64,000 nucleotides of DNA from Veillonella sp. DNF00869 (GTDB lineage Bacteria > Bacillota > Negativicutes > Veillonellales > Veillonellaceae): contig NZ_KQ960749.1 of the NCBI RefSeq assembly GCF_001553345.1, positions 145,397 through 209,396 of the forward strand, written 5' to 3'. This document shows positions 8,196-10,219 of the stretch, in pieces (the first letter of the stretch is position 1; each line of letters opens with the position of its first letter). A model generated the notes under the pieces. That model did not search any database. It saw only the letters and a list, made by a program, of their open reading frames with translations, and was not told the DNA's origin. Made by a program: the position numbers and the translations under genes.

Positions 8196-9539
8196 TTATA
8201 TACTCTTTTTATTCCATCCAGCAGGAATCGCCCCAACCAAGCAAATAATACCAAACACAACTAATGCGATAGTACTGTTATACGCCATCATTTGTAGCGC
8301 CGTTCTTCCTTCTATTGTATACGCAAGAATAATCCCTATAAGTGCCATACTCAATGTCTGCCCCAATAGCCGCACTGTGGAAATGGTAGACGATGCAAAA
8401 CCGATGTACTCTTTCGGTACAGAACTCATAATTAGATTATTATTCGGCGGTGCAAAGCAACTAACTCCAATACCAACAACAGCTAAGCTCACCATAATGA
8501 TTGTCATGCTTTCAGTGAAAGTGCCATACGCCATAGCTAGTAAACCTACACCGATGAGTACCATGCCCCAACGAGCAAATACTACGGGATTATATCGATC
8601 AGACAGTGCGCCCATGCGAGGTGCCAAGAACACCATAATTCCGGTTTGTATGCACAAAATCAATCCTGTCATACGAGAATCAAATCCCATAATCATTTGT
8701 AAAAATAAAGATAATACAAAACCTACACCAAAGGTGGCACTAAAGTTCATCATCGCAGCTATACTGGACATCGTAAATACTATATTAGACAAGAACATTC
8801 TAACTGGTATGAGTGGATCTTTACTATTCCACTCTACATAACCTAATAGGCATAATGCTAGTATACCAGCTCCCACAGCATAGGCACTCCACCAAAATCG
8901 AACCCATTCCGTAATACCAATCATCACTGCACTGATACCCAAGGCGTATAAAAGTAAACTTCTCGTAGAAATACTACTATCTGGTGTATGTACCCATTCC
9001 TCATGCAAAGAGCGAAAAGCCATCACATTTGCTACAACACCTAGTAAGGTAGTAAACACAAAAATACTGCGCCAACCATAATAATAATTTAGAAATCCAC
9101 CTACGGCCGGCCCCAAGGATAACCCCAAATAGACCATACCTCCGATCATACCAAATGCGTAACCACGCCGTTCTAATGGTACCGATAAAGTCAAAATAGA
9201 CATAGACGTAGTATACACAACCCCTAAGGCAATCCCTTGCAAGGCTCGATACACCGTCAGCATCTCTACTGAGTCAACAAAGCACATAAACCCAGATATC
9301 ATCGTAAATACAATACTACCTATATAAAATAGCTTGCGCTTTCCATAGATATCCGCTAGTTTACCAGCAGGAATCACCGCCACCGTACAGCACAGTAAAA
9401 AAGATTCCACCACCCATGCCATATCATTCGTAGTAGCCCCAAACTCTTGCATCATATCTGGAAAAGACATGGTGAGAGAACTCGATACAAAGGGATTTAA
9501 AAACGCCGCTATCATCATCGTATATAAAACAGATTTCAT
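8196..9539 (-). CDS. Major facilitator superfamily transporter, DHA2-like drug exporter
   Basis: Integral membrane protein of 447 residues with 12-14 predicted helices. The loop between helices 2 and 3 has the MFS motif A variant GKLADIYGKRKLFYIG near residues 60-75, and helix 5 has the antiporter motif GPAVGGF near 145, which marks proton-driven exporters. The N-terminus lacks a cleavable signal. Overall it resembles the QacA/EmrB (DHA2) group that expels drugs or metabolites; the actual substrate is unknown. Its promoter lies at 9572-9600 and the transcript probably ends at the hairpin at 8065-8130. Confidence 0.8.
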   Translation of the reverse strand: MKSVLYTMMIAAFLNPFVSSSLTMSFPDMMQEFGATTNDMAWVVESFLLCCTVAVIPAGKLADIYGKRKLFYIGSIVFTMISGFMCFVDSVEMLTVYRALQGIALGVVYTTSMSILTLSVPLERRGYAFGMIGGMVYLGLSLGPAVGGFLNYYYGWRSIFVFTTLLGVVANVMAFRSLHEEWVHTPDSSISTRSLLLYALGISAVMIGITEWVRFWWSAYAVGAGILALCLLGYVEWNSKDPLIPVRMFLSNIVFTMSSIAAMMNFSATFGVGFVLSLFLQMIMGFDSRMTGLILCIQTGIMVFLAPRMGALSDRYNPVVFARWGMVLIGVGLLAMAYGTFTESMTIIMVSLAVVGIGVSCFAPPNNNLIMSSVPKEYIGFASSTISTVRLLGQTLSMALIGIILAYTIEGRTALQMMAYNSTIALVVFGIICLVGAIPAGWNKKSI

Positions 9540-9681: not shown

Positions 9682-9784
9682 ATGACAGCCTTCTTGACTT
9701 GTGCTATACTACAGACATATAGGTTGAGTGTTTCCATCGAAATAAAGAACCCCACAGCGGCTACTGTGGAGGTTCTACTTTTTT
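9682..9784 (+). ncRNA. Candidate antisense RNA 1 (about 69 nt) with its promoter
   Basis: ATGACA (9682-9687), 17 bp, TATACT (9705-9710), predicted start near 9717, then an intrinsic terminator (stem 9746-9776, with one bulged A, followed by a T-run to 9784). No coding frame fits. The same promoter-terminator design is repeated exactly 105 bp downstream, showing a tandem duplication. Its variable part (around TTTCCAT, 9731-9737) could cover the start codon of an mRNA beginning ATGGAAA; no such toxin is visible in the window. Confidence 0.6.
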
Positions 9785-9786
9785 AG

Positions 9787-9891
9787 ATGACAATTCTCTT
9801 TATTTATGATATACTATAACCAACAAGTTGATTAAGTTCCATTGGGACAACGAAACCCCACAGTTGCAGCTGTGGGGTTTCTGCTTTTTTT
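9787..9891 (+). ncRNA. Candidate antisense RNA 2 (about 70 nt), predicted antitoxin of the adjacent small toxin
   Basis: ATGACA (9787-9792), 17 bp, TATACT (9810-9815), start near 9822. A perfect 12-bp terminator stem GAAACCCCACAG (9852-9863) with its complement (9870-9881) is followed by seven Ts or more. The segments TGATTAAG (9829-9836) and TCCATTGG (9838-9845) also occur on the plus strand inside the toxin gene (9994-10001 and 10005-10012), so this RNA can pair with the toxin mRNA across its start codon, leaving only a 2-nt length difference in between. The two transcripts converge. Confidence 0.68.
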
Positions 9892-9913
9892 AGAGAGCTA
9901 CCTCCATATTAGG

Positions 9914-10009
9914 CTAGTTACCCTTAAATCTCCTGTCTAGCCATTTGCAAAAATAATAACTAACTATTCCTGCCATAACAGAGATTGTAAAGCTGATTAA
10001 GAAGTCCAT
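9914..10009 (-). CDS. Small membrane toxin-like peptide (31 aa), type I toxin candidate
   Basis: ATG at 10009 behind AGGAAGGGGG. The peptide starts MDFLISFTISVMAGIV, forms one membrane helix with a small-residue stretch, and ends in a basic tail with the CKWLD motif followed by RRFKGN. This shape, with a very short length and a C-terminal CKWLD-type tail, matches unnamed small peptides that I recall from many Firmicutes; formal family assignment was not possible. An upstream TATACT on the minus strand (near 10056) gives a leader of about 40 nt. Together with the convergent complementary RNA next door it fits a type I toxin-antitoxin pair acting on the inner membrane. Function is inferred from arrangement. 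Confidence 0.62.
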   Translation of the reverse strand: MDFLISFTISVMAGIVSYYFCKWLDRRFKGN

Positions 10010-10081
10010 TGGTTCACCCCCTTCCTGTCACCAGTATTGGGGAGGTAACATCTACAGTATAGCAAAAATTCACAAACTATA

Positions 10082-10219
10082 AAACAACATATCTCCTCCC
10101 GGAGTATTATATGCAAAAGAAAAGCCGTATAACTTCAAGAAAACTTTCGCGTAGGGCAGTTTTCTGAAGTTGTACGGCTTTTCGCCACATTTCATATCCT
10201 CAAACGAGATATGTTGTTT
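10082..10219. repeat. Nested inverted repeats after korB, including conserved-loop hairpin (copy 2)
   Basis: Inner hairpin 10119-10183: outer arms GAAAAGCCGTA and TACGGCTTTTC, inner arms 10131-10145 and 10058-type complement at 10158-10171, and loop TTCGCGTAGGGC (10146-10157), whose complement GCCCTACGCGAA matches the loop at 8092-8103 in 10 of 12 bases. A further perfect 14-bp repeat AAACAACATATCTC (10082-10095) and its complement (10206-10219) encloses it and ends right at the korB stop. The inner stem probably terminates korAB transcription. Confidence 0.7.

Follow-up and report, generated by a model that had tools for sequence, protein, structure and literature searches.

The closest described relatives of the locus reported here are the par modules, represented by Fst/RNAII of pAD1 and by chromosomal Fst. 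According to the accessible portions of PMC7472228 and PMC3543317, these modules consist of a toxin mRNA and a short antitoxin RNA that are transcribed convergently and pair through direct repeats over the toxin start (DRa and DRb), with a ribosome site masked in the toxin leader and a hydrophobic peptide of about 30 aa in which a tryptophan precedes a charged tail and which also has a P/D/S/TxxxG motif. One enterococcal par antitoxin is described, in the text available, as giving no cross-protection against another par toxin, and the Weaver review (PMC7472228), in its available part, describes the role of chromosomal type I modules as largely obscure.

Antitoxin RNAs that are close relatives but differ in their targets are known from zorO-orzO and zorP-orzP of E. 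coli, where orz-only strains keep and express an antitoxin without a toxin and six genomes carry one zor-orz pair plus an extra orz, as far as the available sections of PMC3919570 and PMC11264685 go. This system is unrelated, however, its antitoxin genes are divergent from the toxin, and the same sections describe no array matched to same-site toxin alleles of other species. Small membrane toxins and RNA antitoxins also make up the type I modules of C. difficile, where RCd12 counteracts a noncognate toxin and the more divergent RCd10 does not; unlike at our locus, cross-protection there involves a duplicated, homologous module (accessible portion of PMC7699646). For type II systems, the available parts of PMC12548467 and PMC10305079 propose that a chromosomal antitoxin can neutralize a toxin from other DNA (anti-addiction), but those antitoxins are proteins, whereas at our locus they would be RNA, and the corresponding toxins that we observed are chromosomal alleles. 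In the open literature, a scope outside which most subscription papers fall, we found no report of type I antitoxins arrayed in tandem against allelic toxins; Veillonella and type I toxin-antitoxin systems are named together in two papers, each term a single time.

Here, we analyze a locus from Veillonella sp. DNF00869 within a 64-kb window, by which we mean the whole stretch of DNA that was analyzed (64,000 nucleotides). The design of the locus is the known Fst/par type I design; its new feature appears to be an array of antitoxins of differing specificity, to which we assign a putative function by sequence comparison. Our main reading, to which we give a probability of roughly 75%, is that this is an Fst/par-like type I module in which a second antisense RNA, RNA1, would target an allelic toxin, A2, and would be kept as an anti-addiction element. 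The preliminary description had presented the locus as a candidate new type I system, which holds for the antitoxin array and not for the toxin, a member of a partly known Fst-like family.

Layout of the locus

The following features were identified, in window coordinates.

9682..9710, + strand: RNA1 promoter, from sequence reading and a promoter scan; -35 and -10 kept in Veillonella sp. VA139 (G003)
9717..9785, + strand: RNA1, candidate antitoxin against an allelic toxin (predicted ends); core 9718-9738, terminator stem 9746-9776
9787..9815, + strand: RNA2 promoter, from sequence reading and a promoter scan
9822..9891, + strand: RNA2, putative cognate antitoxin (predicted ends); anti-start region 9825-9848, terminator stem 9852-9881
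9841..10049, - strand: match to Rfam RF02442 (SpF66), taken as the toxin mRNA; 45.5 bits against a gathering score of 42, covering all 239 model positions
9914..10009, - strand: putative toxin A1, a 31-aa membrane peptide (MDFLISFTISVMAGIVSYYFCKWLDRRFKGN); open reading frame with homologs in relatives, SxxxG motif, conserved CKWL
10017..10025, - strand: toxin A1 ribosome site GGAAGGGGG, read from the sequence; perhaps masked by pairing with an upstream CUCCCC
10056..10083, - strand: candidate toxin A1 promoter, TTTATA, 16 nt, and TATACT with TG; 9 of 12 consensus matches

The two promoter-terminator units on the + strand have the same promoter elements, namely, a -35 of ATGACA (9682 and 9787), a -10 of TATACT (9705 and 9810) preceded by TG, and a 17-nt spacer. 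Their period had been given as exactly 105 bp, which is right for the promoters only, since the stems at 9746 and 9852 are 106 bp apart. Promoter matches in the region (9 against a shuffle mean of 6.2, sd 2.7) are not significant alone. Compared to shuffled sequences, the RNA2 unit folds well (z -4.80, 0/200 as good) and the RNA1 unit moderately so (z -2.49, 7/200 as good). Both units are conserved in G003, where the RNA2 -10 reads TAAACT, and 2 differences are found between the window and G003 in the 37 nt up to and including the RNA1 -10.

Facing these units, as originally described, is a 31-codon peptide gene with a strong ribosome site, an open reading frame running from 10009 to 9914 on the - strand and preceded by GGAAGGGGG. 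The -10 of its candidate promoter is identical in four other loci (L031, L034, L035, and L036). The two blocks said to be shared by RNA2 and the toxin start, TGATTAAG and TCCATTGG, are indeed present in RNA2 (9829-9845) and over the start (9994-10012). The convergent toxin mRNA and antitoxin RNA would have a common terminator region, as the stem at 9852-9881 lies downstream of both, with a clear T run on the + strand only. Just upstream of toxin A1 lies a large palindromic repeat (window 10119-10183 and 10082-10219), and palindromes resembling it are seen by eye at the equivalent place in L031, L250, L251, and L255.

This layout resembles par in its convergent RNAs and in the repeats over the toxin start that are copied in the 5' part of the antitoxin, where the two blocks would correspond to DRa and DRb. 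The comparison made earlier to par (Fst/RNAII) is strengthened by the antitoxin core changing together with the toxin start in homologous loci and by the SpF66 match. The locus differs from par in that its peptide falls below the NCBIfam Fst cut-off and in that one or two additional antitoxin genes, of other specificities, are arranged in tandem here. As for SpF66 (F66/srn502 of S. pneumoniae), the window toxin mRNA matches its full-length covariance model with a score just above gathering (45.5 versus 42). F66 and F67 share one intergenic region (available text of PMC3395615), the annotation of F67 (M18) places it in an Fst-family module (available text of PMC12323649), and three pneumococcal type I modules have been reported (accessible part of PMC6212727). 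SpF66, listed as a streptococcal sRNA, is probably a type I toxin mRNA.

Predicted pairing of RNA2 and RNA1 with toxin starts

We compared the window with 60 fetched stretches, which together gave 62 places with matches of at least 25 bits (one stretch, L056, yielded none). Nine of the 62 were dropped because a start codon near the ribosome site was absent, leaving 53 loci that include near-identical ones (such as L061/L062 and L065/L066) as well as three that belong to a different family of the order (L069 and two in L070). For 40 of the 53 toxin starts, the locus's own downstream region was the best or tied best match, and for 50, it was among the top three, the exceptions being L034, which has no antitoxin, L048, and L191. 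Duplex energies gave a similar ranking for first units, with the toxin of the same locus at rank 1 in 34/44 and at rank 2 or better in 42/44 (all except L048 and L057); this ranking covers units with a detected hairpin and -10 and leaves out L037.u1 (wrong hairpin). The two L031 units were delimited by hand. In a broad set of 80 toxin starts, five of them Veillonella loci already among the 53, 58 ranked first or tied with their own downstream region. At L057 (G001:C5), the toxin start looks, by eye, as if it had been replaced by repeat-like sequence, with an antitoxin unit downstream.

RNA2 itself pairs with its own toxin start at -28.0 kcal/mol, and 0/1000 shuffles are as good. Gapped alignment is weaker (score 26.5, reached by 2/60 shuffles), and the related toxin L032 is a marginally better RNA2 partner than the window toxin (-28.5). 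In the toxin-antitoxin pairs that we inspected, the match takes the form of two blocks around the start codon separated by a gap of a few nucleotides. Together with the ranking across loci, these findings support the earlier proposal that RNA2 is the antitoxin that pairs with the start of the resident toxin A1, in the sense that RNA2 has the predicted properties of a cognate antitoxin.

RNA1 had been proposed to guard against another toxin, and a search for a start complementary to its core had been suggested. Among the 53 toxin starts, RNA1 pairs best with that of L034, toxin A2 (-32.3 kcal/mol; next, -22.2), compared to -12.0 kcal/mol and rank 16 of 53 for its own toxin A1. L034 is also the best partner among 142 toxin starts that include other bacteria and viral contigs (-32.8; next, -22.2). 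None of 1000 shuffles pairs as well with A2, and the RNA1 copy in G003 reaches -34.5 kcal/mol with L034. The gapped pattern GATGGAN{0,8}CTCAACCT occurs twice in six genomes, in the RNA1 copy of G003 and at the A2 start in Veillonella sp. 3891 (G002), with 0 occurrences in the control. By alignment score, the window RNA1 is not significant (24, reached by 6/60 shuffles), and the G003 copy scores 32 (0/60). When 28 genomes were searched for RNA1 targets without gaps, allowing 3 mismatches at most, the reversed control gave similar counts, and this search was uninformative. The complementary start was located by the gapped pattern, which was specific, and by duplex energy, and its presence at the same site in Veillonella sp. 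3891 argues for RNA1 being directed against another toxin. The candidate explanation that RNA1 is a duplicate of RNA2 was rejected, as their targets differ.

L034 has the same flanking genes as the window locus, an oxidoreductase gene and an MFS gene. At this position, site A, four states can therefore be distinguished among seven genomes. The window and G003 (where the MFS gene is on a different contig) have toxin A1 and antitoxins A1 and A2; G002 has toxin A2 and lacks an antitoxin; G004 and Veillonella sp. 3310 (G005) have toxin A3, its own antitoxin, and what appear to be remnants of a further unit; and in G001 and G006, the site is empty. Toxin A2 (L075:2501-2593) has a promoter and a ribosome site. 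No A2 antitoxin was found in G002, either in cis or elsewhere by exact pattern, which is unexpected if A2 is active. The A2 toxin may also be resident elsewhere in the source genome.

RNA1 might instead act in cis. It could serve as a second copy of the antitoxin to the resident toxin, or it could pair with a toxin mRNA whose 3' end is extended by read-through. Since few T follow the RNA2 stem on the - strand and a terminator-like site lies on that strand at 9771-9750, the toxin mRNA may extend through both units, in which case it would contain the full complement of RNA1. We consider action in cis improbable, given the low rank of the resident toxin start among RNA1 partners and the preference of most extra units elsewhere for foreign alleles over their own toxin. 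A regulatory role on a host gene, such as the neighboring MFS transporter, would suit the position of RNA1 between the toxin locus and the MFS gene. Such a role seems very unlikely to us, because the predicted RNA1 span stops short of the MFS leader (start at 9539, candidate promoter at 9599-9572) and because, within the window (64 kb of genome), none of the 273 starts that have a ribosome site pairs with RNA1 better than -21.9. RNA1 as a regulator of the MFS gene was rejected, with no overlap and no partner in the window.

The mechanism that we favor, with RNA1 directed against an allelic toxin, would run as follows. The toxin mRNA on the - strand would encode a 31-aa single-helix membrane peptide, and the convergent RNA2 on the + strand, which is complementary by computation to two short blocks at the start codon, would bind there and block translation. 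RNA1, also on the + strand, would be a further antitoxin gene built in the same way, directed not against the resident toxin but against toxin allele A2, which lies at the same site in a sister species. Most likely, the array arose when one toxin-antitoxin pair displaced another here and the older antitoxin was retained. We propose that it has been retained by selection because RNA1 protects against the other allele, through either its re-entry or its left-over message.

Extra and orphan antitoxin units at other sites

Extra antisense units are present in 9/53 loci, eleven in all, which represent about eight independent kinds. At site B, which occurs in six species, toxin a is accompanied by antitoxins a, b, and c in G001 and by antitoxins a, x, and a' in G005; toxin b is accompanied by antitoxins b and a in G004; and toxin c is accompanied by antitoxins c and x in G002 and G006 and by antitoxin c only in G003. 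The cognate unit comes first, followed by b and c in L041 (own a), by a in L040 (own b), and by x in L043 and L045 (own c).

In the other loci, most extra units match a foreign allele better than the toxin of their own locus. When the own locus was left out, the best partner of 10 of the 11 extra units was a same-site toxin from another species (0/20,000 permutations), and the eleventh, L053.u2, matches toxins of another site. Since alleles at one site share ancestry, this test shows where the partners are located and not binding. L038.u3 fits the class of its own toxin. By alignment score, 5/11 extra units are not above all 60 shuffles (the window RNA1, L038.u2, L043.u2, L045.u2, and L198.u2), and L198.u2 prefers other toxins to the same-site toxin. 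The three x units have partial partners only (-25 to -26), and a search of 60 genomes for a toxin matching the x pattern returned only these units themselves. Among the homologs listed, there was no matching toxin for L040.u2 in G004 or for L041.u2 and L041.u3 in G001, and the pattern search gave none for RNA1 in G003. Outside Veillonellaceae, 5/75 starts of the broad set have two candidate units, with no convincing second partner.

Antitoxin units also occur without a toxin. At site C, G002 and G003 have both toxin and antitoxin (L073/L074), and the toxin gene is missing in G005 (L229) and G001 (L214), where an antitoxin unit with its promoter stays, with a core equal to that of G002 in the former and a different core in the latter; G004 and G006 are empty. 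A further orphan unit is found at G004:C7:70037. Among 142 toxin starts, there is no strong partner for either the G001 or the G004 orphan unit (-23.5 and -18.3, respectively). Together, these observations fit a course in which toxins are lost first.

An alternative explanation is that RNA1 is a passive relic, the not yet decayed antitoxin of a displaced or deleted toxin, and has no present use. The series of full pair, antitoxin only, and empty site at site C is in line with this reading, as are L035 and L036, in which we see, by eye, apparent decayed remains of a further unit. Loss of the toxin first would be safe and loss of the antitoxin first would not, as has been argued for E. coli (accessible part of PMC11264685). 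Speaking against a passive relic, the x units and RNA1 keep their cores and -10 boxes, whereas their spacers and neighboring genes differ. The x core is identical (31/31 nt) in three species, with the -10 kept and the spacers differing, and four-fold-site differences among these species are 10-15% for the oxidoreductase and 21-33% for the MFS gene. Similarly, the 21-nt RNA1 core is identical between the window and G003 at a four-fold-site difference of 21% or 45%. This identity, seen across two to three genomes, suggests selection, and we regard the relic as a serious rival that is nonetheless clearly the less likely explanation.

More broadly, we put forward, at about even odds, that type I toxins replace one another at fixed sites in Veillonellaceae and that the antitoxins of former or rival toxins are kept under selection as a heritable RNA immunity array. 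Such an array can be likened to the orphan immunity genes of polymorphic toxin systems. Antitoxin arrays are also a possible explanation for antitoxin-only loci. Because cognate and noncognate sets occur naturally at shared sites in several genomes that are closely related, addiction, replacement, and anti-addiction become testable with defined RNAs of about 70 nt.

The toxin leader and the toxin family

In 46/53 loci, the toxin leader contains a stem, and the loop that it encloses could base-pair with the ribosome site. The loop and the site covary across these 46 loci (0/2000 permutations, also with 39 distinct pairs, in permutations that ignore relatedness). The window leader, the only one folded, is no better than shuffles (z -0.39), which speaks against masking. 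With covariation for it and the window fold against it, masking of the ribosome site as in par is only suggested for the window locus.

Conservation of the peptide frame in related strains had been named as a check on the locus, and homologs of peptide A1 were found in 31 of 60 relatives at E<=1. By profile search at E<=0.01, the toxin family is present in 21 of 28 genomes from the bacterial family, and the profile matches 456 confirmed stretches among genome contigs, the best 80 of which were kept and are mostly from Clostridia, as well as 17 viral contigs. At a lenient E<=10, peptide A1 matches 248 plasmid records, one of them annotated as an Fst-family toxin, and 13 phage records. A search of PDB sequences with the toxin profile gave zero matches.

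The Fst/Ldr signature is a tryptophan between helix and charged tail with P/D/S/TxxxG in the helix (available text of PMC7472228), and by eye, peptide A1 has SVMAG at 10-14, W23, and the tail DRRFKGN. The window peptide has no match to the NCBIfam Fst profile NF033608 at E<=1. Of 25 alignment members, 11 match this profile at E<=1 (best, 8e-5), and in a rescan of 8 relatives, two match with 16.9 and 9.9 bits, below the cut-off of 26. Pfam gave only matches below cut-off or with weak E-values for peptide A1 and its relatives. Toxin A1 thus belongs to a large, partly known Fst-like family and is itself no new kind of toxin.

Two arrangements of related toxins were seen in passing. A 5,885-bp contig (G018:C2) has two toxin-antitoxin loci with the same peptide 4.5 kb apart (L061 and L062), and this tiny contig is perhaps a plasmid with an assembly overlap. 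In Hungatella effluvii (L076:1690-2600), three related toxin starts lie within about 900 bases.
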